A stretch of 64,000 nt of DNA from a virus. The stretch lies in IMG/VR virus record IMGVR_UViG_3300022689_000474, positions 62,001 through 126,000 of that record. One strand, given 5' to 3'. Shown here in pieces: positions 5,901 through 62,000 of the stretch. Every line of letters starts with the position of its first letter. Position 1 is the stretch's first letter. Made by a program: the position numbers and the translations under genes. The notes beneath the pieces are model-generated. The model ran no database searches. It was not told where the DNA came from and saw only the letters and a list, made by a program, of their open reading frames with translations.

Positions 5901-7659
5901 ATCTTTAGTACAACCAATATTAGGAGGTTATGATTCTATAAGTATTAGTAATATAACTACATCTATTAGTAATCTTCTTAGTGATGGTGCTTTAGATGGT
6001 ATGGGACCTGAAGAGATATTATTAAGAGCTCAAGGATTATTAAGTCAATCAAATATTTTACCTGATGAAGTAAATACTTTAATGCAATCAATAGGTCCTC
6101 TACTTACCTCTTTTTCTGAAGGGGGGAGTATAAATAGTTTGATAGGAGGTGATTTAATATCTCAAATAACTTCTAGTTTAGGTATAGATATGTCTCCAGT
6201 AAGTAATGTAATAGGTAATCTTGAGGGAATAGTGGGTAGTGTCAATGCTTTATTAACTATTCCATCTATCCTAGATGCTATGAATGATTATGATATACCT
6301 TTACTAACTCAGATAAGTTCTGCTATTGAATGTGTTGATCTATTCTCTCGTATCAAAGATATTATTGGTATAGTTAAAGACCCTTTAAATTATCAATCTC
6401 AATTCTCTAATCCAGGAGCTTTACAATCTTTGGGTTTACCTATTGATTCTTCTATGACTAGTATTCAAGGTTTAATGACGGGTCTCCTGGGTGATGATAT
6501 TTTAACTGGTCAAAGTTCAGGTATTATTTCTAGTACTTTAGGAGTTATATCAACATTAAGAAGTTCTTTAGGTAGCTTTTCTTTAGCAGGATTAGGAGAT
6601 GACACTTATTCAAATAATTCCTCTTCTGAAGGATCAGAGTATGATAGTTCTTCAGAGGAATCAGTAGATATAAATGGAATAAGTAATAGTTCGGATGAAT
6701 TATCCCAGACACTTAATAATGAAATGTTAGGAACACAGACTATAGCATCAGGTAGTTCAAATTCATATAATTTAATAAATGAATATGTAACAGATCAAAG
6801 TAATAATATAATTCCTGGATTTTACTCTGAACCTCGTATTAGATCGATAGATACAATTGAAGGAGAAACTTTAGAAGGTTATTTCTCTGTAGATGAATTA
6901 GGTAATGTAGCAGTAAGATCTCAAGGAAAACATGATTGTGAGGATCTTATAAGTAGAATATATAATACTAATCAGATAGTAGCAATAGAAGAGAATTTAG
7001 ATTTAGATAATGTAGAGTTTGGAACGTATGTTCCTCTTGATGAGAATAATCCTTTAAACCCTGATTATAATTTAGATGGTCTAATTTCATATAATGATTT
7101 AATGAATGATCCAAATTACAGAATATTCTTTGAAGATCCAGAACTTGGGGAATTTGAGATAAAAGATTCAAGCATATATCTAAATGATATAGGAGTATCT
7201 GATATAAATGGTAATCCATTGGGCTTTTGGACTTCAGGAGTTAATAATGATAATGGAGGTTTAGATATAATAAGAAATTCTGTTTATGATAATGTGAATA
7301 GAATATATGATGAAGATAATAATCTTTTAGGTGTCTCTACTAATAATAATAATATTAATTTAGAGACATTTGATCCAAACGGTTTAGTTTCTACTATTAA
7401 TTATACTTGTGAAGGTAGATTTAGTGATTTTATTAATAGTTTTAAAAGATTAGATAAATTTAATAGATTTATCATATTAAATGAAGATAATATATTTGAA
7501 GTACTTCCTTATGGTAGTATTAACTATAATAACACTGATAAGATATCTTATTCTTATTCTAGTAAAGTAGAAAGGTTTGATATTAATACTATTAAAGAAA
7601 TCTCAGTAATGATTGATAATAGACTTTTATTACAGTGGTCCCAAGATGAAAGATTTTAA
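2914..7659 (+). CDS. Large Ser/Asn-rich probable structural protein with EF-hand-like loop, 1581 aa
   Basis: The family is not recognised. Residues 1-480 are low-complexity and rich in Ser, Thr, Asn and Glu. A Gly-rich hydrophobic patch lies at about 500-540 (GGGTSILGRF...GGLFGMI). A second acidic linker covers about 560-780. A long stretch of amphipathic and hydrophobic segments covers about 890-1240, resembling tape-measure or hub-associated proteins. The C-terminal quarter is Asp/Asn-rich and holds an EF-hand or dockerin-like loop: D1384-x-N1386-x-D1388-G-x-I-S1392-x-x-D1395 (7063-7098). No Shine-Dalgarno is visible, and the ATG follows the previous stop by 4 nt. The next gene overlaps its end. 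I infer a baseplate or tail component from context; enzymatic motifs are absent. It could be an adhesin or a scaffold-like virion protein. Confidence 0.8.
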   Translation: MPNLTSQSVPFSLSAEEVYDQLSILEEGYNLNDLVNSNINELTLDNVAELGITSADYNIPLNPPSPPTNEEVSEQTNTTSSTEETGNISVGPYENIDGLEVANNVTLQDYDTSKVDKFEELLSEDANLTTSKASDAFSDLVENPKGEDNEGSGEKSNETGDGDKNDGSASNLTNSDEDNDLIAGKVMAEARAAVKGSIVQEDAVNLSMKAKKTTKETKESLDAAQQGSTTERNGKVTEGSEEVLKTANQTISKAIDELVESKATNSGIRFSANDAISFSTHKGINLSTSGAITNIAAQKNDYSNVLYTSTEYSYTESNLSNTDTNIKVDNSKNSISRNVNSLEYSRNREINTEVTSLNATEALQTASKERVEVFENAQTQGGTYKLSVEKNQINNIGESLIVSVGSEVPNKTESPAFNPLSVISDVASGKGGYLLSITPDTYDLQQEGAINIHSSQNQTYVADSITDISDKNRVSLSKQNIISYTPGNEFRVSNNMTTATLLGGGTSILGRFSFMGGLFGMISNVAEIASNILPGLSLPSDLPMPPIGERPNAGLKVDIDACIPSKYKDYISGTSPEGSSEDLNSDISNDISSDYSFSDSPILDDLTNTGNLDQTLDNTYSIQPPSDLGETFNAGPIGDITLIENEGTEVDGVQDENAGDIISGTEVDDLDGSSQTLDDPIPSEDELVESLDEKKPTSKEWTSGRGVETSQGFSADSKTKNQEQPDASTQKKSKTGSSLSSTDNKSSSKGVSREKRMKVWFAPHTYFDLFEEDDFEYNNAPPYQGDPMDVGKTDVKVEEGNTPELNKIAKKSIEDSIESSNLEESSKEKLLSNTSNVLNALSSLNITNSEEISRDIVIGTLSTLNLNLDENEKDILYHSYLELNGNIALSIGIFGTIMPLIQDAANVASNVFSQVSSISSMVGIDIEGGFADSVMSVIDQIKGGLNVSSVASLLDSSGELSKFIPVGQSIIAMLNNPEGKVDIKDTIINTLLPQVESLVQPILGGYDSISISNITTSISNLLSDGALDGMGPEEILLRAQGLLSQSNILPDEVNTLMQSIGPLLTSFSEGGSINSLIGGDLISQITSSLGIDMSPVSNVIGNLEGIVGSVNALLTIPSILDAMNDYDIPLLTQISSAIECVDLFSRIKDIIGIVKDPLNYQSQFSNPGALQSLGLPIDSSMTSIQGLMTGLLGDDILTGQSSGIISSTLGVISTLRSSLGSFSLAGLGDDTYSNNSSSEGSEYDSSSEESVDINGISNSSDELSQTLNNEMLGTQTIASGSSNSYNLINEYVTDQSNNIIPGFYSEPRIRSIDTIEGETLEGYFSVDELGNVAVRSQGKHDCEDLISRIYNTNQIVAIEENLDLDNVEFGTYVPLDENNPLNPDYNLDGLISYNDLMNDPNYRIFFEDPELGEFEIKDSSIYLNDIGVSDINGNPLGFWTSGVNNDNGGLDIIRNSVYDNVNRIYDEDNNLLGVSTNNNNINLETFDPNGLVSTINYTCEGRFSDFINSFKRLDKFNRFIILNEDNIFEVLPYGSINYNNTDKISYSYSSKVERFDINTIKEISVMIDNRLLLQWSQDERF

Positions 7660-40284: not shown

Positions 40285-43200
40285 ATGACTTTTCTTAATA
40301 CTCAAAATTTAGTAGGTCTAGATAATTACTTTGACTTACTTATAAGTGAAGCTAGTACTTCTTTAAATGCTGTTAGTGATCTTTCTATAATAGATTTTGC
40401 AGAAAATATAGTATTTAATGGGGAAGCTTATCTTTATACTCAACAAAAAGCTGTTCTTAAATCTTTTTATGGGGAACCTCTTACTCCTGAAGAAGAAGAT
40501 ATCTTAATAAATTGGAAGAATAGGGAGAAGAGTAATTGGGTTCCTAATAGAACTTATAGAGATATGATTTTGGAAGTAGGTAGAGGTGGTTGTCCTTATA
40601 TAGAAGATAAAGTTATTACTAATAAAGGTACTCTTAAATATAAAGATTTAATTGATAATAAGAGTTCTATATTTACCTTCTTAGAAAAAGATAATACTAT
40701 TGGTCTGACTTCTAATATACTTACATGGGATAAAGGTTTATGTGAATGTGTTCAAATTACTACTAAAACAGGTCGAAAGGAAATAGTTACTTTAGATCAT
40801 CCTTACCTAATTTCTTTAGGAGACCCCAATTCATATAAATGGCTTAGAGCTCAATACCTTACGAGGGAAAATAAATTATATTTACCTATAGGATTAAAAC
40901 TCTTTGGTTCAGATGATTCTTTAGATGAATCTTTTATCTTAGATATAGTTCGAGATATATCTAATATATCTTCTTCTATTATAGAAACTATAGAACTATC
41001 TACTGAATATCTTCACTCTTTATCTTTATCTTATATATTATCCTATTTACCTTTCCAATTAGATTATCTACTTACAGTAAAAAAGGAATCTTTATATCTT
41101 AAATCTGAGGTTCTACCTGGTGATATATTAGATTTCTTACAAAGAGAATTAAGTAAATGGGGTGTTATATGTATATGTGATTATAAATCAAATATCTTTA
41201 TTATAAAAGATTTAAATTCATTTATTAATTTATTAGAATTACTTAGATCTCATAAAGATAAAGACCATAAAATAAATAATTTATTTAACTTATTGGAATT
41301 TAATATTTCTCAAGGTAAATGTTATGACAATATTCCAAGATATAAATATGGAGAAATAGAATATTTCTTAGATGAAGTTTATAGTGTTATTAAAGTTGGT
41401 AAATTACAGACACTTGGATTAGAAGTTGTTAAATCTAATACTATAGTTAATTCATTTATATCCCATAATTCTAAGAGTTTGATTGCTTCTATTATCTCTT
41501 TATATGAATTTAATAATCTTATATCTTTAGAAGACCCCGCTCGATATTATAATTTAATATCTAATGATCCTATAGCGATATTCTTAATAGCTACTACTGC
41601 TACTCAAGTTAAAGAAACTTTATTCTTGAAACTTAAAGGATATTTAAGAGGTAGTGATTTCTTTAGGAATTTAGAAAATAAAAAGAAAATAGAAGTATTA
41701 GCTGATCAAGTTAGATGTCCTGATAAGAATGTTGCTATATATGCTAAACATACTAATTCAGATGCTTTAGTTGGTTATAACTTGAAATGTATGATTCTTG
41801 ATGAAGTAGCTAGATTCTCTAATAAAACTAGAGAAGACGGTAAAATTGTTTCTTTAGCTGATACTTTATGGAGAAATGTAGGTAAAGGTTGTTTTCATAT
41901 GAATTCTTATATTTATACTAATAAAGGATTTATAAAAGCTATTGATTTACTAAATATTTATCAATCAGTAGATTATCTTAATGATATAAAGATTTTAAGT
42001 TATTCAAATGATTCATTTAAATATCTAATATGGGCAGATGATATAGATATATGGAATAATGGAATTCATCCTACTATAGAACTTATAACTGAAAATGGTT
42101 ATAACGAAAGAGTTACATATAATCATCCTTTTTTTATTTATAGACAAGGAGATGTAGAACCAAGCTGGATTGAAGCAGAATTTATTAATGAAGGAGATTA
42201 TATCTCTTTACCAAAATCTTTATTACCTTCTGATAGATCTATAAATTATTTAGAAGAAGAATATACAAACTTTTTTGAATTCCTAGCATATATATTTAGT
42301 TTTGGAACTTGGTTTGTAAATCATGGTCGAATACAAGATCATGCTATAGAAATAAGAAGAACTGTTCATAAAGAAATAATACAAGTTATTCAAGATTTAT
42401 TGAAAGATATAGAAGGTTATAGATTTCATAATAATAAAGATTCAACCTCTGGTAGTAAGTATAGAATTTTCTTTGATAAAAAAAGTAAAGGTTATCAGCT
42501 ATTAAAAGAACTTACAGATAGAGGATATTTAATTAATTCTTATAGATCTTTCTATAATGATATTCCTGAATTTATTGATACCCTACCTCTAGCAGAATTA
42601 AAGTCTTTTCTTAAAGGATATTATACTTCTAATTGTACCTTCTTTGATTTATTAAATCCTTCTGGTATTACTATTAAATTACCTCAAGAAACTGAAAGTG
42701 CTGCTAGAAGAATACAACGTTGTTTATTACTCTTTGGAGTAATCTCTTCTATTAAAATAGAACCTGTCAGGATAAATAAAGATAAGTTTATTTTTAATGC
42801 TAATGTTGTTTGTATAAAAGGAGTTTATAATATCTCTTTATTCTTACAATCTATTGGTCTTTCTACTTCTGATTTTGTTACTATGAAAAAAAGAATAGAT
42901 AGATATATCTCTTTAGATAAAGATAAAGATAAAGATAAATATTCTCTTCCTTTAAATATAGAACAATGTATCGACAATAGTAATAAGATTGATTCTATAA
43001 ATAATCTTAGATGGGAGAGAGTTTCTAATATTATAAACCATCCTAAAACTATTACTATTGGTTTAGAAGTTAGAGAAAGTGGTCTCATTTGTAATAGTAT
43101 ATTGAGTCATAATACTCAAAGATTCGCAGAAGAAGGAAGAAGGGTAGCGATATCATCAGGATGGTACGAAGGAGACCCTATACAAAAATTAAGAGAGAAG

Positions 43201-44169
43201 GCAGATAGGAACCCAAATCAAATATCATTTTTCTTAAAGACATGGGATTTAAATAAAAATAGAAGTGCTAGTAGAGAGTCTTGTGAATCAGATTATATAG
43301 ATGATAGAGCTAGAGCTGAACTTGAATATGAAGGTATAAGACAGAAATCGGATACAGGTTTATTTATGGAATCTTCTTTAGAAATTGCTAGTGTAGGAGG
43401 TTCTATTATAGATACTGAGGAAACTGATGTCGAAATGAATGGAAGGAAGTATGTAGGTATAAATGTAAGAAGGTTAGAGAAGAATAAAAGTTGTCCTAGT
43501 TTCATTCATATAGACTTATCTTTAAAGACAGATTCAACAGGTCTTTGTATGACACATATAGATATAGATGATAATGAGAATTGGAATATAGTAGTTGATG
43601 CTCTTATTAAATGGACCCCTTATGTAGATGGTACTGGTTATAGAAAAGTAGTTTCATATCTAAATGTAGAAGAAGTTATTCTTAAATTATGTGAATATAG
43701 AAATGTAGTTAGAATTACTTTTGATTCATGGAATAGTGCTTCTACTATACAGAGATTACATTCTTTAGGTATTATGACTGAAGAAATATCTGCTTCTAGA
43801 AGTAAACAAAAAGAATACTATTTATTAATACGAGATCTAGTAAACCAAGGTAAAGTCTTAATACCTAAAGATTCTAAATACAGGATTCAACTTATAAGTG
43901 AATTAGTTCATCTTAATATGAAAGAAAATGGGAGTATCGTACATGGTCTTTATGGTAAAGATCTTAGTGATGCTTTTGTTAATAGTTGTTATCAAATATA
44001 TAAAAGAATGGTAGAAAGTGGTCTTATTCAGGGTTATAAACCTAGTATTAATTCTCTACCTTCTAATCTTGTTAATGCTGTTACGCCCCGTTCTAAAGAA
44101 ATGACTAAACCTGTAGTTCAAAGTGGTAGAGATAAATTTAAAAAGATGAAATCATATGGCATTATATAG
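40285..44169 (+). CDS. Terminase large subunit interrupted by two inteins, 1294 aa precursor
   Basis: This is the ATPase and nuclease motor that packages DNA into the head. Without the two inteins (293 and 408 aa) the mature protein is about 593 residues, a normal TerL length. The Walker A loop is split: V98-G-R-G-G102 before intein 1, then S396-K-S after it, giving GRGGSKS. Walker B is MILDE (D506, E507). The segment NVGKG...TQRFAEEGRRVAISSGW after intein 2 is motif III or the coupling region. Nuclease acids are D1077 (FIHIDLSLKTDSTG), D1147 (RITFDSWNS) and D1226/D1229 (GKDLSDAF). It needs protein splicing to become active. The next gene overlaps by 14 nt. No small terminase was recognised nearby. 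Confidence 0.93.
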   Translation: MTFLNTQNLVGLDNYFDLLISEASTSLNAVSDLSIIDFAENIVFNGEAYLYTQQKAVLKSFYGEPLTPEEEDILINWKNREKSNWVPNRTYRDMILEVGRGGCPYIEDKVITNKGTLKYKDLIDNKSSIFTFLEKDNTIGLTSNILTWDKGLCECVQITTKTGRKEIVTLDHPYLISLGDPNSYKWLRAQYLTRENKLYLPIGLKLFGSDDSLDESFILDIVRDISNISSSIIETIELSTEYLHSLSLSYILSYLPFQLDYLLTVKKESLYLKSEVLPGDILDFLQRELSKWGVICICDYKSNIFIIKDLNSFINLLELLRSHKDKDHKINNLFNLLEFNISQGKCYDNIPRYKYGEIEYFLDEVYSVIKVGKLQTLGLEVVKSNTIVNSFISHNSKSLIASIISLYEFNNLISLEDPARYYNLISNDPIAIFLIATTATQVKETLFLKLKGYLRGSDFFRNLENKKKIEVLADQVRCPDKNVAIYAKHTNSDALVGYNLKCMILDEVARFSNKTREDGKIVSLADTLWRNVGKGCFHMNSYIYTNKGFIKAIDLLNIYQSVDYLNDIKILSYSNDSFKYLIWADDIDIWNNGIHPTIELITENGYNERVTYNHPFFIYRQGDVEPSWIEAEFINEGDYISLPKSLLPSDRSINYLEEEYTNFFEFLAYIFSFGTWFVNHGRIQDHAIEIRRTVHKEIIQVIQDLLKDIEGYRFHNNKDSTSGSKYRIFFDKKSKGYQLLKELTDRGYLINSYRSFYNDIPEFIDTLPLAELKSFLKGYYTSNCTFFDLLNPSGITIKLPQETESAARRIQRCLLLFGVISSIKIEPVRINKDKFIFNANVVCIKGVYNISLFLQSIGLSTSDFVTMKKRIDRYISLDKDKDKDKYSLPLNIEQCIDNSNKIDSINNLRWERVSNIINHPKTITIGLEVRESGLICNSILSHNTQRFAEEGRRVAISSGWYEGDPIQKLREKADRNPNQISFFLKTWDLNKNRSASRESCESDYIDDRARAELEYEGIRQKSDTGLFMESSLEIASVGGSIIDTEETDVEMNGRKYVGINVRRLEKNKSCPSFIHIDLSLKTDSTGLCMTHIDIDDNENWNIVVDALIKWTPYVDGTGYRKVVSYLNVEEVILKLCEYRNVVRITFDSWNSASTIQRLHSLGIMTEEISASRSKQKEYYLLIRDLVNQGKVLIPKDSKYRIQLISELVHLNMKENGSIVHGLYGKDLSDAFVNSCYQIYKRMVESGLIQGYKPSINSLPSNLVNAVTPRSKEMTKPVVQSGRDKFKKMKSYGII
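40591..41469 (+). other. Intein 1, in the Walker A loop of TerL (293 aa)
   Basis: Residues 103-395 of the precursor. It begins at C103, has a block-B T169-x-x-H172 (VTLDHPYL), and ends VNSFISHN with His-Asn before extein Ser396. The ending GLEVVKSN... is typical of block F. The middle shows no clear LAGLIDADG motif, so it may be a mini-like or degenerate intein. The precise insertion into GRGG|SKS of the P-loop is directly visible. Confidence 0.9.
41890..43113 (+). other. Intein 2, in motif III region of TerL (408 aa), with degenerate LAGLIDADG
   Basis: Residues 536-943. It begins at C536, has block-B T611-x-x-H614 (VTYNHPFF), and ends ICNSILSHN before extein Thr944. Two helices resemble LAGLIDADG motifs (FLAYIFSFGTW near 666-676 and LKSFLKGYYTSN near 772-783), but both lack the expected acidic residue, so the homing endonuclease is probably dead. 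A short Asp-Lys repeat is present near 42918-42940. Confidence 0.9.
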
Positions 44170-45138: not shown

Positions 45139-45723
45139 ATGCCTAAATTAATACCTCCTTGTCCTATAGATTATTCTTTTAGCCCTGGTAGGAAATATAA
45201 TCTCATTGATCCTGAAGATGTAACTGAAACTCCTATATTAGAAGCTAGAGGTTTAGTTATATTCTCTGATTATAAATTTATTCTAAAAGATGCTATAGCT
45301 GATGAATCTTTATTCTATAAATATATAACTCTTAATGATGGTCAAGTTTTAGGTATGTGGCAAGATGTTATAACTCCTCTTCCATTAGAAATTAAGTTTG
45401 ATGTTAAATATTATCATGATATTTATGTAGATATAAATACTTTCCCTAAATATGATTCGGGTTTTTATGTTTTAGATGGTGTTTTTATTACTAAAGTATA
45501 TATAGAACCTCATTGTTGTGATGGTAAAGTATATATAAGACATGCAAGAGGAGTTTATAATTGTATTAGACATGAAGGAATAGAAATAATAGAACCTTCA
45601 TTTCCAGAATGTACTAAACCATTAATTATGTATGATCCTATAGATCCTCCAGATATACAACCTCCTGAGACTGAACCTCATTTTCCTGAATGTATTCCCG
45701 ATTCACCTGAATTAGTTCCTTAG
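45139..45723 (+). CDS. Hypothetical protein, 194 aa, Pro-rich C-terminus
   Basis: Not recognised. A beta-rich core (about 1-160) includes the Cys pair HCCDG and the segment RHARGVYNCIRHEG, and is followed by a Pro/Glu-rich tail with two FPEC motifs. Its TAG stop overlaps the stop of the convergent reverse-strand gene (45720-45722), so there is no room for a terminator between them. It is probably a small virion protein that binds a partner through the tail, by context only. Confidence 0.72.
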   Translation: MPKLIPPCPIDYSFSPGRKYNLIDPEDVTETPILEARGLVIFSDYKFILKDAIADESLFYKYITLNDGQVLGMWQDVITPLPLEIKFDVKYYHDIYVDINTFPKYDSGFYVLDGVFITKVYIEPHCCDGKVYIRHARGVYNCIRHEGIEIIEPSFPECTKPLIMYDPIDPPDIQPPETEPHFPECIPDSPELVP

Positions 45724-46280
45724 ATTCTCTTCTTATTTTCCTCTTGACCCCTTATATTTATCCAATTGATAGCTTGAATCTGATGTGATAATAAATCTCT
45801 TATATTCTTAGATACTTCATAATATTCTGATTCAACTCTTTTATAAATAACAGGGGTTAATTTATTAATTCTTAATCCTTTACATATCCAAGTATCTATA
45901 GTTACTAATGTACTCCTTTCAGGGTATAAAATGTTTAAATAAAAAGCTTTTACTTTATTTCCACTTATTATTCTTATATCTTTATTTCTTAATAACTTTA
46001 AAGCTTTATATTTATTTCTATTATAAGTACATATCTTATATCTATCTATATCCTTCTCCCTATATCCCTTTATTAGATTTAATGTATCTATCTTATTTCT
46101 TTCCCATCGATTCCTAGGACTTAATATTGCTAATACTCCTACTACTATATCTAACTTTATTTTTGTCCTTTTAGATATCTCTACACAATAATCTCTAGCT
46201 TCTCTATACCATCCTTTTCCTTCTTCTATCATTGAAGGAGAAGCTGATTCTAATAACTCTATAATACTTTCTCTATACAC
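45720..46280 (-). CDS. Phage protein of a HhH-GPD-like family (also common in actinobacteriophages), 186 aa
   Basis: The pattern W-Y-x-x-A-x-x-Y (GWYREARDYC), VVGVLAILSPRNRWERN, a KALKLL helix, GNKVKAFYLNIL, TLVTIDTWICKGL, then a Y-x-x-V/V-E-x-x-Y helix and HQIQAINWINIRG matches an uncharacterised family frequent in actinobacteriophages, whose layout resembles HhH-GPD DNA glycosylases (K-x-x-A-F-x-x-N and V-x-I-D-x-W). A base-excision function is therefore a guess; the catalytic Asp may be the one in VTIDTW. The start is GTG at 46280, 12 nt after AGG on the minus strand; the nearest ATG would drop 16 residues of the family's N-terminal helix. It is reverse-strand, downstream of RNase HII, and shares overlapping stops with the forward gene. 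Confidence 0.6.
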   Translation of the reverse strand: MYRESIIELLESASPSMIEEGKGWYREARDYCVEISKRTKIKLDIVVGVLAILSPRNRWERNKIDTLNLIKGYREKDIDRYKICTYNRNKYKALKLLRNKDIRIISGNKVKAFYLNILYPERSTLVTIDTWICKGLRINKLTPVIYKRVESEYYEVSKNIRDLLSHQIQAINWINIRGQEENKKRI

Positions 46281-46358: not shown

Positions 46359-46979
46359 TTAATTAAGTATTTTTCTTATATAACTTCTTCTATGTTGTTG
46401 ATGTGGACCGTAAGATTGAAGAGCCATTCGATGTTTATAAGTACCATAACCCTTATTACATTTAAGATCATATTTGTTTAAGTCTTCATCTTTATTAACC
46501 ATATCAATTATTAAATTATCTCTATATGTTTTAGCTAAAATACTAGCTGCTCCTATTATTGGTTCTTTTAAATCTCCTTTTATAATACATTCATAATTGA
46601 ATGTATTCAGAGATAAACTAAAAGAATTGATACCATCTAGATATATCTTCTCTATATTACTTAGTTCAGAAGTAAAGTCTTCTTTCAGTTTTATCATTCC
46701 TCTATAAATTCCATTGAATTGAGCTTGATAAATACCTTTAGAATCTATTTCATCTTTAGTAACGTGTACAAAAAAATAATCATCTAATAACTCAATTATC
46801 TCAGGGTATAACTTCTCTCTTTTCTTACTACTTATTTTTTTACTATCAGTTACTCCTATATCTATCATTTCTTTATCTATTAAACTTTTCTCTTTTGATG
46901 ATAGTGCAAAACATAAAACCATATCATAAAATAAACTTCCTTTACCTACTTCATCTATACCTACAATATATCTCTTCAT
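46359..46979 (-). CDS. rnhB: Ribonuclease HII, 206 aa
   Basis: It cleaves RNA in RNA-DNA hybrids and removes single ribonucleotides or primers during phage replication. All family blocks are visible: GIDEVGKGSLFYD near residue 7 (acidic D8-E9), VTDSKKISSKKRE, IYLDGI (catalytic Asp), GDLKEPIIGAASILAKTYRD, and NKGYGTYKHRMALQSYGPHQQHR. Length is normal. It is on the reverse strand, divergent from the 5484-residue gene with only 25 nt between the two starts, and upstream of the HhH-GPD-like gene. Its presence among forward virion genes marks a two-gene island of DNA/RNA metabolism. Confidence 0.93.
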   Translation of the reverse strand: MKRYIVGIDEVGKGSLFYDMVLCFALSSKEKSLIDKEMIDIGVTDSKKISSKKREKLYPEIIELLDDYFFVHVTKDEIDSKGIYQAQFNGIYRGMIKLKEDFTSELSNIEKIYLDGINSFSLSLNTFNYECIIKGDLKEPIIGAASILAKTYRDNLIIDMVNKDEDLNKYDLKCNKGYGTYKHRMALQSYGPHQQHRRSYIRKILN

Positions 46980-47004: not shown

Positions 47005-50000
47005 ATGTACTTTTCTAATATATCAAATAAGAATCAATTATTCTCTCGTAGTACTTTATTTAACTCTTCTATGACTTCTGAGTTGAATAAAAAGTTCTCT
47101 TTTGATATTTATAATAATAAAAGTAATTATATTCCATCTGATTATATTAATAATTTAAGTACAGATATAGATCCTATAAATAGTCTTATAAATGAATCTT
47201 CTCTTCAATCTAGACTCTCTGGTAATACTAATCAATATTCTATACCTCCATCTAGAAAGTTATTAAATACTTCTTTTAGTCTTCCTCTTGAGAATAGAGC
47301 CCCTTATTTAGGTGGTATATCTTCTAGTCTATATAACTCTTTAACTCAATCAAATTTAGGTAATATTGATACTTCTAATATTACTCTTACACCTTCTAAT
47401 TATTCTTATGTTAAGTCTAATGTTGATTCTATAGATACTTCTAATATCGGTTTTAATAACTCATCAAAATATTCTTTCATAAAGTCAGATACATCTTCCA
47501 TAGATACTTCTGGTATTAGTTTTAATACCCCTTCTAAACCTCATTCCTCTTCTATTAATGAGGCTATTAGATCTAATATTTCAGGAAGTTCTATAGTTAT
47601 TCCCTCAAGTACTTATTTAGATCCTGTCTCTAGAAATCAAGCTTATAGAGATACACTTAAACCTCAAAGTGGTTATATTGATAGTACAACTAAAGGTTTT
47701 AATCAACATTTTAGAGATTTAATGAAGCCGAAGTATGTAGCTTTAAGAGAAGAAAGTATTCGGGAATATGTTGATACTATCAAACCACAAAGTGGTTATA
47801 TGGAAGATGTAAGTAAAGATATACATTTAAGATATAAAGATAATAGTAAAAGGGGTATCTCAAGTATCAATAATAAAGACTTTTTAGAATATTTACCTTC
47901 TGAGGATATTAATTTTAGGAGTGCTAATAATCTAGAAGGGGTTAAAGAATATAATCAATTAAATTTCAAATCTAAAACTAAAACTTCTGTCTCTTCATTA
48001 GCAAAGAAAGTTGAATTAACTCAAGCAGGTTTGGATAATTATCAAAGAGTCATTCAGTTAGTATTCGACTTTGAGAATAGAAGTACAGAAGGAGTCAGAC
48101 TTCCTCAATTAGCTTCTATGAGGGAAAAAAGATATGAAATGTTGGGGGCTGGTGCTTTATACGACCCAAGAAAGAATGTAGTTGCAGTAGATGACTCTAT
48201 TATAGGGCAATTAAATAGAGGTAAACTTACAAAAGAATCTTTCGGCACTTTAGCTCATGAATTAGCACATTCTTATCAGAACCACTTTGGTAATACATGG
48301 AAAAAACAAAGAGCCTTTGAGAATAGAGTTTATTCTGCTGATATAGATGAAGTTAAACCAGGTAATTTAATTCAAGATAAATATACCAAAAGGGTAGTAA
48401 AGAGATCATTAGAATCTATAGCTCTGACTAAACAAAATATGCCGGAAGGTCTTACAAAAGAAAGAAGAGAAAGTGCTATCAGAAGATCTACTGCTAATGA
48501 GTTAGATGCATATTCATTAGAGGATAGAATTACTCGGAGTGTTGATGTAGACCGAATATTTGATCCTGATTATAAACTTACTAAAGTTGGTTATCGTACT
48601 GAAGATACTATTAGAAAAGTAAGAGCTACAAGAGAATTTAATAAAAAATTACTTACAGGTACTATAGGTACAACAGCAGTAGTAGGTTTAGGTGCTATTG
48701 CTTATTCATTATTTAGAAATAGAGAGGAGTCAAAATCTGAAGAGAGTAATAATGATAAATTAGTGTTAGGAAGTATTGTAGGGTCTTCTTTCTTATTAGG
48801 AAGTATTAGACAGACTACATTTGGCCCTTATAAAACTTCAGAACATTTAGGAGAATCTTCAATTGCTCAAAGAAATTTAAAGAAAGCTACTAAAAAGGTA
48901 TTTGATTATCTAGGGGTAGACTTTGATCTTTCTCAAACTCCTACAATTGCTGCTTTTGGACCTGATATTCCAAAAGGATTAGGAGGTGCTTATGTAGCAA
49001 AGTATAATGAATTGGTATTAAATCAAGAAATATATGGTGAACTAGTAAGTGGAAAAATCTCTAGAAATTCATTCTCCCTGTTGGCTCATGAATTAGTTCA
49101 TGCTTATCAAGCTAATGTAGGTGGTAATATTCAGAAAAAACTTCTTTCTGATGAAGAAGTAAATCTATTACCTAAAAAAATTCTTGATATGGCAAAGAAG
49201 TCTGCAGCAGTTCAACCGTATGAATCTAAAGAATATTGGGAATCTTTTAGAAAAGAAGTAGAAGCTTATGACGTTCAATTTCAAATATTAGCCAAAAAAA
49301 AGAAATATATAAGTCCTAAATATAGGCAGACACGAATTAATCCCGTTTCTACATCTATTGATCAACCTACTTCTCCTAAACCACCCTTTCAGCCCTCTTT
49401 ACCTCCTACTAAGCCTAAGCCCCAATTACTTCTACCTCCGGCCAAGTCTATTAGTCCTAGATCTGTTAATCAATCTATTCTACCACCCGGATTAACCGTC
49501 CCATCTCCTATTTCTCCTTACCCTAGTCCTCCTGGTAAGTCTAAGCCCCAATTGCTTCTCCCTCCTGCTAAGCCTATTAGTCCTAGATCTATTAGTCAAT
49601 CCATTTTACCCCCCGGATTAACTATTCCATCTCCTATTTCTCCTTCACCCAGTCCCTCTCCTAAGTCTAAGCCCCAATTACTTCTACCTCCTGCTAAAGT
49701 TATAAGTCCTAGACCTGTTAGTCAATCTCTTCTACCCCCCGGATTAACGGTTCCATCTCCCATTTCTCCTCCCCCTAGTCCTTCCTCTAGTAGGTTGGGG
49801 AGTCAGTTACTTTTACCTCCTGCTAAAGCTATAAGTCCTAGACCTGTTAGTCAGTCCATTATACCTCCGGGACTAACTATCTCCTCTCCTATTTCTCCTG
49901 AAATTAGTTCTTCTCCAAGCCCCCCTTTTAGTCCAAGACTTAATAATCAACCACTCTTACCTCCTGGGAAATCACTAGAAGAGGTAAATATGATAAAAGG

Positions 50001-53000
50001 TATTGGTCTTAAGAACATTATTCAGGGACAAAATCTTAGATCTTTAAGAAATACTTCTTTAGGAGCTATTGGGATAGGAATAGGTTTGGCTATAGGTATA
50101 AATCAATTTATTTATTCATCAAATAGAGAAATAAGTTCTAGAGAATTTAAAGAGATAGACGATTCCCTTGATAGAAGGATGAGAAGTGTTCGGATTAATA
50201 GAGAGCAAGAAAGAATGGAAATAGAGGCTGAAGAAAGGGTAAATAAAATGATTGAAAATAGTATTACAGAAGAGGATAAAAGATTTATAGAAGAGCATTC
50301 TAACCAACTAAAAGAAAGACTACAATCATTAAATAGTGCTAGAGTCTCACAAGACAATACAGTCAACAGTACGTCTAGTAGTTCTAATGAACTTCCTTCA
50401 ATTCTTCCAGAAAGAACAATATTTGGGAGTATTTCACCACCATTAGTTTTATCTAATGAAATTGATCTATTAAATGAACCTTTAGACTCAAGGACTCAAA
50501 CTAAAGTTGCTTCTGGATCTCAACAGTATGTTCAAAGACAAGAAGCATTAGCTCGAGGAGAGTTGTATACAGATGAAGGTGCATCTATTTCTATCGGGAA
50601 ATGGACTCGTGAACCTATGACTAATAGATCTAATGAAGAATGGAAATCTCTTTTAAAGAAAGAATCAGACTTTGTTAGGTCATTAAATAGAGATGATCAA
50701 ATAAATGTATTATTGGGTGATAGTCTAACTCAATGGTTTAGACCGTATCAACTTCCTCAAAAAGAAGATACAACTTGGTTAAATCAAGGAATATCCGGTC
50801 AAAATATACAACAGATTGATCAAAGGATTGATATCCTTAAATCAATGAAAGGAGATAAAGTATTCATAATGGCCGGTATTAATGATTTAAGACAAGGAAG
50901 ATCTGATAAAGAAATACTAGAAAGATACTCTTCTATGCTTGATAATGTCAAGAAGAGTGATGTTGCTGATGAAGTTGTAGTACAATCTATACTTCCCACA
51001 AGATTAGATAATTTACCTACTAATAGGATTAAGTCACTTAACTCTCAAATTAAAGCTATGGCGGAGAAGAGAGGAATGACTTATATTGATCTCCTCCCCC
51101 ATTTCTTAAATGAAGAAGGTCGGTTAAAAAAAGAATATACTACTGATGGTATACATCTTTCTAGAAAAGGATATGACACTTGGTCTAAATTAATGTCTCA
51201 ACATCTAAATGGAAAGGGAGAAGAACAAGATATTAATATTTTGGGGAATCAAGAGAAATTAGAAAGGAACACTAATCAGGCTGGAGAAAGTATTATACCT
51301 CCATCTAGTTCAGTAGCTAGACAGGCAGCTAAAAATAATAAAGATAAAGAACAGACTCTTTCTTCAAGTGCTGGAGGTGGTGGTAGTAAACCACCTGGTA
51401 CTCCTAGAACTTCTACTCCTCCTCCTCCTGAAGAACCTGATCCTCGAAAGAAAGCAGGACTATATACTAATATGGATGATCAGGAAAAGAAAAGTTGGGT
51501 GGATAGATTAAAGTCTGCTGTAGGGTTTATGAGAGATGAAAAAGTTGAAGATGTTATTAAAGTAGTAGGTGTTACTGCTGGTATTACTGCTGGTATGTTA
51601 GGTACTATTAAAGGTGTAGAGGTTCTATTCTCTAATGTGAATAGAATCTTTAGTTCTTTGAGAAGTTCTATAGCTCTCTCTACTTCATCTAGTTCCTCCC
51701 CTGGTCAATCAGTTACTTCCCCTCAGCCTACCTCTTCTACTAGAACTCCAGGTCAACCAGCTGTCCCATCCCAATCCTCTTCTCCTACTACACCTGTATC
51801 TCAATCTACCCCTTCTACTAGAACTCCAGGTCAACCAACTGTCCCCTCCCAACCCACTTCTCCTACTACACCTAGGGCTCCAGGTCAACCAGCTGTCCCA
51901 TCCCAATCCTCTTCTCCTACTACAACTGCATCTCAATCTACCCCTTCTACTAGAACTCCCGGTCAACTAGTTATCCCATCTCAACCTTCTTCTCCTACTA
52001 GGGCTCCAGGTCAACCAGTTAGTCCACCTCAACCAAGAGGGCCTGCCCCTTCTTCTTCAGTAGGGAGTAACTTACCAAATAGATCTATAAGTAGTGGACC
52101 GCCTTCATCTCCATTATCAAGTACTCCTTCAGTAAGAACTAGAGGTAAAGGAGGTATGGGATTTATGTTAGGTGCAGGTCTTGTATCTTTAGGAGTAATG
52201 GGAGTTATTGGAGGAATAGCTGGTTATATGGTCTTTTCTCCTAGTGAAGATAGAACATCAGGAGAAAGGAGAGATGATTTCTATTCCAGTCCAGAAGTAG
52301 AACAAAGTAGAAAAGAAAGAGAAATAAGAGAAAGACAGTTAATAGAACAAGAGAAAAGAATTACGGGGAGACCAGATAGAAGTATAGATAGAGATACTAG
52401 TTTATTATTAAGGAATAGTAGAGAAAATAGGGACGGAAGTTCTGTAAGAAGGCAATTATCTTATAGAGAATATATGGCATTACAGACGGGAAGAAGTGAA
52501 GAACATTCATTACAACCTGAAATTAGTAGACCTTCTTCTTTATCTTTAGATGAACATTTAGCTATACAAAACCAAGGCCAAATCCGTAGAAGAGTTAGTA
52601 GAGATATAGATCAATCTAGAGGTATTAGAGCATCTGATTTATCATTTGAAGAGTTTTTAGAGATACAATCTGAAAGACCAGAGATAGAAAGAAGAAGAGA
52701 ACGTATAAATAGGGGGGATAGTAGATCTAGAACTCTATCATTAGGAGAATATCTATCTATGGGTGAAGAAAGAAGAGTATCTATAGGGAGTGATGATAAT
52801 AGATCTAGAGCTAGATATCTAGCCATCATGGAAAGTAGTGAATCTTCTATAGATGATAGGTATAGAAGAGCTAATAGATTAATAATAAATAGACCTGATA
52901 GGGAGTTAACGACTCCACTATTACCTCAAGGAAGTCATGAACCCCGTCCAGAAAAACACATTGACATGAGTTATGACGAGGAATATTTAGGAATATGGGA

Positions 53001-56000
53001 ATTTGGTTCTAAAACTAGAGGTCTATTAAGTCAAATACAGAAAGGTACATTATATGGAGGGTTTTATCAAAGGCCCTCAAGTCCTTATGGAAATATATAT
53101 ATTGATTTAGCTAGTAGAGAAGTTCCTACTATAATGCCTCCTACTAGTGGTACTGGATATCTATATGAAAATAGGAAAAGATATATGGAAAAGTTAAGAG
53201 AAAGTGGAGTTCCAGTAGTACAGGTTGGTGACTTCCACGCTAAAGCATTTATAGGTACTAATATTAAAGATGAAGAAATAGCTATAGTACTAACAGGTAA
53301 TTTAACTAGATCTGCTTTAGAGTCTGGTGTTCCGGATGAGGCAATTATGACTAATGAATCTATAAAAGATAGATTTTTAAGAACTTTTTTCAATCAACGT
53401 CCAAAGTTTTATCAAAGTAATATTGGTTTAGTTGTAAAAGATTCAGAAAAGATTGGTCAACTTAAAGAAATCTTATTTAATATACAGACAAAGGGGGTAT
53501 CTTACTCAACAGAAGATTTTATAGTAGGGGGAGCTATGGGAAATAGTAGAGAGAGAATAGTAGATTTTATACTACAAAAGTCTAAAACTGGAGATGATAT
53601 TAGTATTACTTCACCATATATTGATGACCCAGAAATAGTAAGAGCTTTAGTTCAAGCTAAACAACAATCTGGTGTTACTATTAGACTAATAACTTCTAAA
53701 GAAGGTTCTGGAATAAGAGCTTATTCACAAGCCATTTCAACACTTCAAGCAAGTGGTATAGAAGTATATGCTCCAAAGGGAACTCAGTCTTATTTACCTC
53801 ATGAGAAGATGATACTTATAGGTAATGATTATATAGTAGGTTCTCATAACTTTACTTCTAAGGCTTCTGATAGACAAATAGAAATAAGTCTAATGGGTAA
53901 TGACCCTAGAATAGCTTCTTTAATGCAAGCTGATTTTATCAGACAAATAGAAGAAGGTTATGTATCTCTTAAAGAAGGTTCGGGAGCTAGAAGATCTATG
54001 ATGTTAGGTACCAGTCCTTTACTTAGTGGTTTATACGCAGGTAGTGATAAAGCTGGTACTCTTTTATTAGACCCTAATATGGGGGCTTCTTATTTCTATG
54101 GGAGAGCTTTATATAATAATCAACAAAGACAGGCTAGAGCTCATCATAGAGTTATAGATCAAGAGACTTCAGGTGTAGCTACAGCTATGTATAAAGCTGC
54201 ATATCTAGCTAAATTGAATGAAGGGGAATTAATTCCACAACATAGTGATTTAGATAGAATACCAGGAATAGTACAACAGTATGATAGAGAGTTATATACA
54301 CCTGGTATAGGTGCAATATTAAATGAAAAAGTCTTTATGAGATTAGGTCTAGGAAGATTATATAAAGATGAGCTAGGATTCTTACCATCAGCGATGGGAG
54401 CTTTAGGTTCAGTCTTAGATAAAACTTATTTATATTTAAATCCCAATGCTAACTTTCCAGGAATTACGCATTATTTTAAGGAAATGGATATTAAAGATTC
54501 TTCATATAGAGATAGACCTGCACCTGTAGGATTATTTGAGGCGGGGTTAAGTGAATTAGCTTTCTTAGGACAAGCATCAGCTCAAGGTATATTATTCTAT
54601 ATGATTGTAGGAGAACCTATATCTATGTTCTTATCAGAGACTATAAAGAATGATGTAGAAAGAGTTATTTCTAATAGTCTTAGTACAGATTTAAATCAAT
54701 TCTATTCAACTTCATCTAGACTTCATAGGAGGGCAAACTTATCAATGGCTAGTGCTTTTAAAAGTCCCCTATCAGCTAGGATGGAAGTATTATCTACGAT
54801 GGATAATTTAAGGAAGATAGATGCTGAATACTTTGGTGCTGAGAATCCGGGCCTTAGTATTTATCATTTCTCTTCTATGTATTTGAGAGGGAGAAGTGGA
54901 ATATTATTGAATGAAGTTATGAAACCATTCTTAATGGAAATAGTTAATCCATATGATCCTATGGATGTACAAAGTAATAGAGGTTTTTCTAATGTTATAG
55001 ATAGATTTATAGAAGAAGTTAGTAGACCTGTAGGATTAGCAGCTATAAGTCCTTCTGATCCTCATTTAGATTCAATAAAAATAACTAGAACAGATGTACA
55101 AAGGGGATTATATAAACAAGGGTTTTCTAGGAATCAAGTACAAAGTATGAAGATAGATGAAATAATAGGATATAAATATGCTAGAGAACAATTTGTTAAT
55201 AAAGCGAGAGATTTCTTAGATACATCTACATTTAGATCTTCTTTAATATCAAATAGAGTAAATAGCTTCAAGACTTTTATTGATAGATTTGGAAATTATC
55301 AAGATTTTAATACTAAACAATTAGCTAATCTATTTAGTCAATTAGAAATAATAGAGAATAGTGTAGATCCTACAGATGTAGATGTAATAGAAGATATACA
55401 TATGATAAGAAGGAGATTGATGCAAATAGGTGCTCAGATAGAAGATCCAGCTAAAAGATTATCTAGAAATAGGAAAGCTGATATCAGTCTTACTAAAGAA
55501 GGAAGGTTAATAGGTGATATCGACTTTGAAATTACTAATGAAGGAATAGATAGATCTTCATCTATAGCTAGAAGATTACAAGATATATTAGATGAGATAC
55601 CTTTAAATCCTCTTAACTGGAGAATGTTTAATAAGTATCGTGCTATTAGAGGTATAACGGGTCAAGACTTAGAAAGTGAAGGTTATTTAAGAATAACGAC
55701 TACAGGACAACAAGATACTGGAAGAGTTATTCCAAGAGTAAGAACTGTAGGAGAATTATTTTCTTTCACTGATTTAACTCAAGTAATGAGGGAGATATTA
55801 TTTGGAAGAGGAGGTTTTTCTCAACATTTAGCCAGAGCGGAAGTATTTAGTGATAGAGAAAGATTAATAAGATTAAATAGAGTTTCTCAAGTAAGTAACT
55901 TTGAAGATCTAACCTTTAAAGATGCTAGTAGTATTTGGTTTGATAGAAAGATAGGTTATGCAGGTAAGATGGCTGTAGATAAAATTCATACTGTATGGAA

Positions 56001-59000
56001 TGCTACTATTGGTTTTGCTTATGAATCTTCTAAAAGAGTTATAGATAAATATAGATATTTACAAGGTTCATTATTGGCACCTTTTGGAATAGGTAGAGAA
56101 AAAGGATTATTAAGGGGTAGTAAGGCCTTAAAGGATATGGAATATTACTTAATGAATATGGAAGATGAAACTACAGGTCTTAAAGCTATAAGTTGGGGTG
56201 ATGATTTAGATGAAATAAAAGAAGCAATAAAGTCTTTAGAACAAGAAGCAATAGAAGAGTTTAGAAGTTTAAGTAATACTGAAAGATTGACTAAATATGG
56301 TTCTTTAAATGAATCAGAGTATATAGATAGATATGTTAGTGAAAATATACAGAGAGCTACTAGTAGTATAGATCCAACTGCTAGAAGATTGAATTGGTTA
56401 GATGAAAATGTTGTAAAAAGTCTTGCAGAAGCTGAAGAAGTTAGAAGTAGATTTATGAATAATCCCGAGAGACCTTTTGACTTTGTAGAAATACAAGAAA
56501 GGTTAAGAGCAGAGACTTTAGGTTTATTTAGAATGGGGACTGTTAAAGATGAAGCTTTAAAGAATAGAATGGTTCGTATGAGTCCGGGTATAGGAAGAGA
56601 TGTAACTGGAAAGATGACTAAAGGTACTTTAACTACTACTGCTTTATCTATATCAGTATTATCATCTTTAATATTATCTGATTTATTCCAAAGTACTTCT
56701 GGAGTTAGTCTATTTACTCAATTGGGTTTCTCTCTATTTAGTGGAGGTGGTCCTATAGGAAGATTAATGGGTAATGAACAAGGAGAATTGGGTATCAATA
56801 CACATTTTGAAGGAGATAGATTATTTCCTGATATACCTGGTCTAGGTAGAGTTGGAACTACATTATTAACTACAGCAGGTACACTATATGCTGCTCATGT
56901 AATAGGTACATCTGCTTTAAGGGCTGAAGCTATAAATTATAGTTTCACGACTGATTTCATGTTTCAACAATTAAAGTCGGAGACTGGAACTGATATTGTT
57001 TTATCAGCAGCTAGAGGATCAAATGAAGCGGATATCTCATTAAGACAAAAAGTATTAAGTGGAGAAATAAAGAAAGGAAGGGAGTTATCAGATTTTATAG
57101 ATAACAATCCTACTAGGACTATTAGTATGAGAATGAAGTATAAAGATACATTTGAAGCTTCACTGTCTCTAATGAAAAAGGGAGATATGTTAAATATCCG
57201 TTCTATGAGATTTAGAGGCAATACATGGTTAAATACTATGATTGCCTATGCAGGCTTATCAATTGGTGGTAAAGCTTTAGTCTCTTCTACTTCTTCTTTA
57301 CTCAATCATATGAGGGAATCTCAAGGGAGTCTCGATCCTTTAGCTTTTGGTGTTGCTGGTGCATTGATTGGATCTAAAATGACTAGAAGTTTTGGTGGAG
57401 GTCTTGCCGGTCTTTTAATAGGTGGATTAGGTTCTTATGTTATGAATAAGATGGGTGTTAAAGTATTTAATCTTGGAGATCCTGGTTCGGTTGTAGATAA
57501 TCAAGGGGCTACTCTATTAGGAGAGTTATCCGACTTTAGGAATTCTGTAATGGCCAACTTTGATAAAAGTTCTAGAATTGAATTGATGGCAGCTTTAGTA
57601 TCTCAAGGAATAGAATCACCTTATGGTTTATTTAAACAAGAAGCTTCAGGTACTGATGTTAAAGTAGTAGCTAAACAGGTTACTTCTCCTATAATACAGT
57701 TCTTTATGGCAAAAAGAACTAAGGGACAATATACTGATTATTCAGGAAAGGTAGTTGATCCAGGTATAACTACATATTCTTTAGGTATACAAGGACCGCC
57801 TATAACAGGGATGTCAGTTGGTATCCAATTACCATTTAAGATATTAAAAGATAGACCGGAGAATAATAGTTCTGGATATATGAATAGAGGCAGTAGAAAT
57901 TTTAATCTTGTATATAATGATGAAACAGATATTTTAGATTATTTATATGGAGTAGGAATGATAGCTACATCTGCTCAGATGTTAAGTTATTCATTAAGAA
58001 CTATTGGTGCTATAGGTTCTCCTTTAACTCCATCAGCTGGTAGTACTTTAGGACAATATAGAGAAACTGCCGATAATTTATTTACAGAATCAGGTAAAAG
58101 GATAGGTAAATTTGGTACCGCAGTAGAAGATGTTGGAATGATATTACCTAATACTATTCATAGAGTAGCTCAATATATCTTCTCTTCTGATTATGATGTC
58201 TATAATCAAATAGAACTAAGAATGAAAAGGAGATATGAGATGTCTAAAGGTATAGAGGGTGGAGATCTTACATCTGTTAGATCTTTTAATAGATCTAGAA
58301 TGTTAATTAGATATACATCTAAAGCTGCTTTTGGGGCTTTTGTATTAAATTTTGGGGCTGGTCTAGTACAAGATGATGATAAATTTCAAGAGAATTCTTT
58401 AGTACTAAATATGAGTGGTGTTGGTTTGGGTGTGGCTGCTGGAGTAGGTCAAGATTATCTAGCTGGTGTATCTAGAGCTATGAGAGTATCTAATGCTGGT
58501 AGAGCTCTACGTATGACTAGATTACGTAAAAATTTACTTCCTTATGCTTTATCTGGACTTGTGGGATTTCATCTTACTGATGATAGATTTGGGGTTTTTA
58601 CTGGGATGAGTAATGAATATGTTAAACAACAAAAACATGATGAATATTATTCTTATCATAGGGAAGCAGTTATAGGTACTTATGCTGTAGCTATGGGTAC
58701 ATTAGGTGCTACATTTGGAAGAATGGGTATGGATTCAGGTCAAGTATTAGAAGAATATTCAAGAGCCCTTAATTCTTTAAATGAATTAGAAGATATACAA
58801 CAGGCAAATACAGCAGGAGGGGGAGTATTAAGAAGAGTAAGAAGAGCATATCAAGCTCATCGAGTAGAAGAATTAGAAAAAGAAGCTCAACAGATAGTAG
58901 ATTACTTCAGACATAGAAGTAAACAAATAGAAGAGACATTTGATTTAGTATCTTCAGCTTATCCTAATGTAGCCCCTGAGACATTAAGAGAATTCCATAT

Positions 59001-62000
59001 TAATAAGGCAAGACAGATTATAGAAGATACGGGGTCTATGTCAGCTAGGGATATAATGAATAGACAGGATGAAGCTACAGCATTAATACAACATGTAAAT
59101 AGATCTAGGGGTGCGTATATTGATGCAAGGTTATCTAGTAGAAGATTTTCAGGTAGATTAATGAAAGGTATGATAGGAGTTCCAATAGCTACACATATAA
59201 TAGGATCTTTATTACATTCTATTAACCCTGAAGTTTTTAATGCTAATAAGTTCTATGATTGGTTGGAGAGTAGAGGTACTAATTTTGATGCTAATGCTCC
59301 ATTTATGAAAACAAGAAATGTTATAGCAGATGCTATTAGAGCTATAACATTTACTGATAGATCAATAGACTCTGGTATTAGTTTAGATCAAACTTTTAGG
59401 AGTGCAGCAGCTTCAGGAGGTTTTTATCAACCTGTATCTCATGAAAAGTTATTAATACGACAGACTGGATATGCTAGGTCAATGACCAAGTTATTCAGAG
59501 ACCTATCTGAGATAGCTATTCTTGATGATGTAAATCCATTTATAAGTGGTCCTTTAGGTGCAGGTGCTTCTATTAGGAGAGGAGATAGAGGTACAGTATT
59601 AACACCTTATATACAAATACAAACATCTGGAAGTGATATATCAACAGCTTCATACTCTATGAGTTCAAGATTCTTCTTTAGAAATGTATTACAAGGGAAT
59701 AATGATTTAGTATTTGAGATACAAAATGCTATGAGGATGAAGAATGAATTTATGAAGAAAGGTTTAGATCCTTCAGTAGTAATGAGAAGAACAGCTTTAA
59801 ATATATTAATGGCTACTTCATCATTACAACCTAGAAAGAAACCAAGAAGAGCTTCTAGATTATCAGACAGTCAATTATCAAGTCTAGCTTCGGATACTTT
59901 ATTAATGGCATCATTAAAGGAAAGGATGGCAATACAGAAACATAGTAATTATCAACCAGTAGAGTCAATAGTGACTCAAATGTTAATAGAACAAATGATG
60001 CCAACTCATAAGTATTTAGATAATATGTTAATGAATGTATTATCTCCAGAGAATGCTAAGAAGTTAGGTATAGGTGTAGGTAAGAATTTGGCAGCATATA
60101 TGATGGGAGATCCTTATTACTTATTATCTAGAAAGATAAATATGATGGGTATAAAATTCTTTGGAGATCAACCTGGTGGGGTAAGAGGTAGAGATATATC
60201 TAGTCAAGCTAGAGATTTTCCTGATTTATTTGGAGAGTATAGTTCTAAACATTTAGAGACATATACTATGGAAAATAGTAAGAGATCTCCTTTCTTAGAA
60301 TCATTAAGTGATAATAGTAGTCGTATATTTGGAGCTCTACCAGCACCTGTTAGTTTAATGTTAGGTTTGACTCTAGGTCTTAGTATTACTTCTAGACTTA
60401 TTGATTTTGCCAATGTTATTAAAGGAGGACATGAAATAAGTGAAGGTCAAAAGATGTTAAGAGAAATATCTAGTGAAAGATGGTTCACTAATGCTCCTGA
60501 ATCAGATAAGTTAAGGAATGTATGGGTCAGTATGAATTATCCCCAAATAGGAAGTTCAGAGCCTCTTGTAGCTGGAGCAAAAACATTACCAATCTTAAGT
60601 AAAGGATCTTTTCACTTCTTATTAAATCCTGCCTCTCATGATTCTTATAAAGTATCTCAATCTTTAAGAACTGGTTTATCAGAAGTACAGAAACAATTAG
60701 ATGAAGCTAGATTAAATTTTAGAGGTCAATCAGTAAATATATTTGAATATTTACAGATAAATAAAATAAAAGAATTAGAGGCCATATTAGGTGGAGTACC
60801 TAATCAAAGTCATATACAAGCTATGACAGTATATGATAATTCAGGTAATAGGGTATATGGTATTGATACAAATAAAGCTTGGATGGATAACTTAAATGAT
60901 GCTAGAGATTTACTTATGACTTCATCCAAGGGTATGGAACCTGAAACTGCTAGAAGGATGAAAGCTGTAATATCTGCTATGGAGACTGAGATTAAATCTC
61001 GTCATATAACTAATTTAAGTGATACTATTTTGGATCAAGTAACAGAACACTTTACTAAAGAAATAGATCATTATATTGATCAATATGTAGATTCTTTAAT
61101 GAATAATAAGGTTCAGATAAGTAGAAATGATTATAGAAGCATGTTGGAAAAAGCGAATATATCTGATATAGAAAATAGATTAGATAAATATTTTCCTTCT
61201 GCTCCTGGAGGTGGACCTATTAAATCAACTGTTGATGTTCCTGTAGCTGCATTTTTTATACCTAATGCCTCACCTGAAGAGATATTAGGAGTTAAAACAG
61301 AACAAGATTTATACAAATTAATTGAGGCGAGAGGAGAAGCTACTGGTCAGTTAGATGCTATATCTACAACTGATAGTTCAGGTGTTAGAGTAGCAGATAT
61401 GAGAACTAAACTTAAGTCGGCTGCAGCTAATTCTATTAGAGAAGAAGTAGCTAGAGAGTTAAAATTATTTAGTAATGACCCTAAGAAATTATCTAGACTC
61501 AGTTCTGGTCTCACAGGATCTATAAAACATATTGCTTCTTCAGTAACTAATAAAATATTCTTAAATGCATTAGGAGGGAGGACAGGAGAAGTTGAGAAGT
61601 CATTCTTTTCAGTCTTACGTCATCATTGGGGAGGTTTAGGAGTTACTCCTTCAGCAGATACTAAAAGAAGTCTAATAAATAATCTTAGGTCATTCATGTC
61701 TAGGATGACTAAAGGTTCAGCCCCTTATATTGCAGAAGATGAAATAGAAGTGGCTAAATTCCATTCATCAGTTTCTGTAGAGAGAGCTAAAAGAAAAGCT
61801 TTATCTTCTGTTGAATTACCAGAAGAAATGGCAGAATTAGAAGCGAGGAAAGCAGCAGGAGATCCAACAGCTTTAGATATAGCTAGAAAAACAGAAGAAA
61901 TAAATTTAAGGAAAGCTCCTTTATTAACTAAAGCAAGTAGAGGTCTTCAAAGTTTCTGGGATGTGGCTACATCTATTTTTGATATTATTGAAGCTATAGA

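Follow-up and report, generated by a model that had tools for sequence, protein, structure and literature searches.

The window, a stretch of 64 000 nucleotides, covers positions 62001-126000 of a 152,052-base virus record, the virus being described as cyanophage-related. A single open frame of 1294 codons at 40285-44169 encodes a precursor of the terminase large subunit (TerL) with two inteins, and its parts are as follows.

40285-44169, + strand: whole TerL precursor, 1294 aa, matching the PHROG terminase large subunit with E 9.5e-17
40285-40590, + strand: N-extein, aa 1-102, ending in GRGG (aa 99-102, 40579-40590), the first half of the Walker A loop
40591-41469, + strand: intein 1, aa 103-395, 293 aa, class 1, from C103 to N395, +1 Ser; block B TLDH within 40786-40812; LGLEV...SHN at 41413-41469; endonuclease region mostly lost
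41470-41889, + strand: middle extein, aa 396-535, starting with SKS of Walker A (aa 396-398, 41470-41478), carrying Walker B CMILDEVARF (41788-41817) and ending in NVGKG (aa 531-535)
41890-43113, + strand: intein 2, aa 536-943, 408 aa, class 1, from C536 to N943 with SHN end, +1 Thr (T944); TYNH within 42112-42138; LAGLIDADG domain without both motif acids (42277-42312 and 42598-42642)
43114-44169, + strand: C-extein, aa 944-1294 plus stop, with presumed motif III RVAISSGW (43141-43164) and nuclease acids in HIDLS, TFDSW and KDLSD

Removing aa 103-395 and aa 536-943 leaves a joined extein of 593 aa, the size of a normal TerL that an earlier note on this DNA had put at about 593 residues, and this extein aligns unbroken from end to end with the intein-free TerLs of Microcoleus phage My-WqHQDG and Microcystis phage LMM01 (40-42% identity). 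That contiguous homology, together with the PHROG match, places the gene among the TerLs, as the note had proposed. The Walker A lysine, the Walker B acid pair, motif III and the nuclease acids are kept in an alignment of 12 exteins, and the product after splicing is predicted to be a normal two-domain TerL (ATPase and nuclease). A profile search of solved TerL sequences gave no match, and folds were compared instead; the model of L006, an intein-free relative (pLDDT 77), matched the HK97, T4 gp17 and P74-26 TerLs in the PDB with Z 16-17. The nearest TerL relatives are the metagenomic L006 and L008, the L008 extein being 49% identical, and the three group with a support of 94 in a tree of 12 TerL exteins. 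A single-protein search of IMG/VR found no close relatives of the window, and bacterial genomes yielded no TerL relative and one marginal intein match. The gene is the only TerL of its 152 kb record, where a profile built from eight intein-free TerLs (A5) detected no second, intein-free copy.

Downstream of TerL lies an open frame of 5484 codons (47005-63459, + strand), in which hydrolase-like and phospholipase D-like stretches were judged by eye; Microcoleus phage My-WqHQDG and LMM01 have giant ORFs at about the same location, of 12.5 kb and 8.7 kb respectively. A ribonuclease HII gene (46359-46979, - strand; Pfam RNase_HII, E 6.5e-28) runs opposite to the structural genes and is adjoined by a DUF7178 gene (45720-46280).

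The borders of the inserts agree between two independent profiles. A5 matches the gene in three pieces (40300-40593, 41467-41895 and 43105-44082, with E-values of 3e-31, 2e-60 and 5e-109), breaking at residues 103-395 and 536-943, where homologues running straight through would have contradicted the note. A second profile (A7), made from three inteins of other phages (L008 and L028), matches intein 1 at 40591-40917 (E 3e-13) and 41368-41469 (6e-4), and intein 2 at 41890-42984 (E 5e-28) and 43003-43113 (2e-5). As these matches lie at the 5′ and 3′ ends of both inserts, both ends of each intein are found independently, and the two inteins of the note stand with exact borders. A group I intron or an assembly break was ruled out by the single open frame and by the intein profiles at the ends of both inserts. 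Neither PF14890 nor A7 revealed another intein in the 152 kb record. Further intein splicing-domain matches outside TerL were seen in the related virus records of L007, L010, L028, L053 and L055, for example at G002 171053-171979 and G006 86002-86892.

Both inserts have the class 1 features: Cys1, TxxH in block B, an SHN end and a +1 Ser (intein 1) or Thr (intein 2). Intein 2, a putative Hint-fold domain, scores above cut-off with the sequence profile TIGR01445 (intein N-terminal splicing region) and matches A7, and it alone matches Pfam LAGLIDADG_3. Intein 1 taken alone falls below the Pfam and TIGR cut-offs, and its splicing domain shares only 24-32% identity with those of the clade's other inteins at sites a-c (defined below). 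Its AlphaFold model has a mean pLDDT of 49, better in the splicing core, and shows the Hint fold: the PDB structures that match it best are inteins, namely NpuDnaB, with Z 13.4 and an rmsd of 2.5 over 130 residues, and SspDnaB, with Z 13.3.

The two motifs with catalytic acids of a homing LAGLIDADG endonuclease are absent from both inteins. At the motif positions, where L008 intein A has LLGYLLGDGG and FLSRLFACDGY and the L028 intein has LLGYLIGDGG and FIKGLFATDGY, intein 2 has FLAYIFSFGTW and FLKGYYTSNCT, with both acids gone. Because of this loss, and because intein 1 has shed most of its endonuclease region, the two look as if they no longer home, and both endonucleases are presumably inactive.

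Among the 12 distinct TerLs compared, four carry inteins, at four sites. Site a is GRGG/SKS, splitting the Walker A loop (window and L008), which reads GRRGSKS, GRRGGKS or GRGSGKS in intein-free relatives; site b is GRxxSK/S (L008 and L053); site c is NxGxG/T (the window, as NVGKG/T, and L028); and site d is FDxWN/S in the nuclease domain (L053). Intein 1 thus sits inside the Walker A loop, with GRGG before C103 and SKS after N395, as had been claimed, and the comparison with relatives suggested at the time gives exact coincidence, site 1 recurring in L008 and site 2 in L028. L008 has its first intein at the window's first site and its second two residues on (GRGG/A/SK/B/S), and L028 (IMGVR_UViG_2909739949_000002) has a single intein at the window's second site (NIGRG/...SHN/T) that keeps both LAGLIDADG motif acids (LIGDGG, FATDGY). 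A test for clades of same-site inteins gave a weak intein tree (UFBoot 42-77), the value of 77 joining L008 intein B with L053 intein 2.

The earlier note, sound on almost every point about the gene's anatomy, erred in setting intein 2 in the motif III region. On the L006 model site c is residue 242, in a helix (231-249) that precedes the motif III strand, and in the window the presumed motif III strand RVAISSGW (aa 953-960) lies some 10-15 residues past site 2. We take the AISSAW strand to be motif III from its place after Walker B and from known TerL anatomy rather than from a residue-level structural alignment. The alignment and the L006 model rule out a position within motif III and put site 2 in a helix that follows Walker B and precedes motif III. 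The description 'two active-site inteins' is therefore unsupported.

In the class 1 route an N-S shift at Cys1 is followed by transfer to the +1 Ser or Thr and by cyclisation of the Asn. We read the gene, with a probability of about 0.9, as one precursor of a normal TerL with two class 1 inteins, each of which would excise itself to give a 593 aa motor subunit. If both left by this route, the junctions would be GRGGSKS and NVGKGTQRF. Packaging very likely depends on splicing, judging from the anatomy, because the ATP-binding loop would not be formed until intein 1 is out; a precursor still holding intein 1 would have no such loop. The note's proposal that both inteins must splice before packaging can proceed is accordingly sound, intein 1 parting GRGG from the P-loop lysine. 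The analysis shows the anatomy, the borders, the homology, the retained splicing residues and the decay of the endonucleases; that splicing occurs, is efficient and is constitutive, we infer.

It is very improbable that either insert, or both, has lost splicing, leaving a broken or frozen terminase or a tolerated domain. Intein 1 is divergent enough that its activity is not readable from its sequence with certainty, but neither intein has lost any catalytic residue at its termini or in block B, the extein retains the Walker A lysine, the Walker B DE and the acidic motifs of the nuclease, and the record contains no other TerL. Unlikely too, though less so, is a conditional switch, in which splicing would await a signal (redox, metal, light or late infection) and packaging would be held until needed. 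Such a role was proposed earlier for the double-intein TerL of Mic1 (PMC7156551), mycobacterial DnaB inteins are a documented case of splicing that responds to stress (PMC6195587), and a switch would account for endonuclease-decayed inteins that persist though probably unable to home. However, the window gene has no regulatory feature that we could find, packaging in most members of the clade relies on a TerL that has no inteins, and decayed inteins may persist simply since exact deletion is rare. Under the self-excising reading, the inteins would now be inherited with the gene rather than home, and be retained because imprecise loss would kill TerL; persistence with a decayed endonuclease fits such vertical inheritance and alone is no argument for a switch.

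The window TerL has a single P-loop intein. On metagenomic contigs, three TerLs, related or intein-linked, have two in the same Walker A loop.

3124-7464 of IMGVR_UViG_3300039159_000083: L008 TerL, two inteins in one Walker A loop, GRGG/431 aa/SK/425 aa/STIAA, with a micro-extein of 2 residues
3559-8577 of IMGVR_UViG_3300009448_000011: L053 TerL, 1672 aa, three inteins; GRRASK/335 aa/385 aa/STMAS, with 0 extein residues between the P-loop inteins
3116-6940 of IMGVR_UViG_3300015370_000076: L082 TerL, its Walker A loop holding both a mini-intein of 134 aa and an intein of 432 aa, GRR/134 aa/SGK/432 aa/T, with a micro-extein of 3 residues

Both L008 inteins have intact LAGLIDADG motif sets, and as they are 44% identical to each other, one is not an assembly copy of the other. 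The first intein of L053 is class 3-like (Ala start, HLW, block F Cys, THN) and matches the class 3 DnaB intein of M. smegmatis (6bs8), while the second is class 1, without a recognisable endonuclease, and its Cys1 would serve as the +1 residue of the first; the third interrupts the nuclease motif FDQWN/S. L082, found by way of its intein alone, belongs to another TerL lineage. If both P-loop inteins of L008 or L082 splice correctly, the catalytic lysine would arrive on an extein of 2-3 residues, and splicing across the pair would drop that lysine and yield a dead motor. On balance we favour the view that inteins stack in the TerL P-loop, which would be a so far unreported splicing architecture with alternative products possible. 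Our search of the open-access literature for tandem, nested, adjacent or closely spaced inteins found no published pair less than 48 residues apart, the closest being 48 and 85 residues apart in one protein (PMC8966425), and no published case of micro-exteins of 0-3 residues in one Walker A loop. In the MCM protein of haloarchaea, active inteins that are neighbours impede one another's homing (PMC10643990), which bears on the origin of the stacked pairs. The stacked cases ask what the minimum extein length is, and whether the order of splicing decides if the motor gets its lysine.

A packaging motor that carries inteins is a clear example of an essential phage enzyme expected to be inactive before splicing. 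With inteins at four sites of one TerL family, and endonucleases ranging from intact to lost, the clade lets the gain and the decay of inteins be seen together.

The window is a further example of a double-intein TerL and not the first of its kind, because Mic1 and crAss-like TerLs each have two inteins. Microcystis phage Mic1 (PMC7156551) is likewise a cyanophage with two inteins in TerL, for which packaging regulation was proposed, but it is a 92.6 kb siphophage with a P22-like headful TerL, its inteins lie in the ATPase and nuclease domains whereas both of the window's lie in the ATPase domain, and a homing endonuclease domain is still present in its large intein whereas those of the window are decayed. 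The TerL of the crAss-like Delta phage OBYQ01000140 (PMC7886860) is, like that of the window, in three in-frame pieces parted by two inteins; these are of the Hint-Hop type, with TAG recoding, in an unrelated phage group. Mycobacteriophage TerL1-a and TerL1-b (Kelley 2016, PMC5050341) are inteins within the Walker A loop, at sites one residue apart, in a different TerL family with several ATPase-domain sites; the passages of that paper drawn on here argue that the TerL intein is incompatible with the TerL pentamer, and describe no single TerL with two inteins, the arrangement that the window shares with Mic1 and OBYQ01000140.
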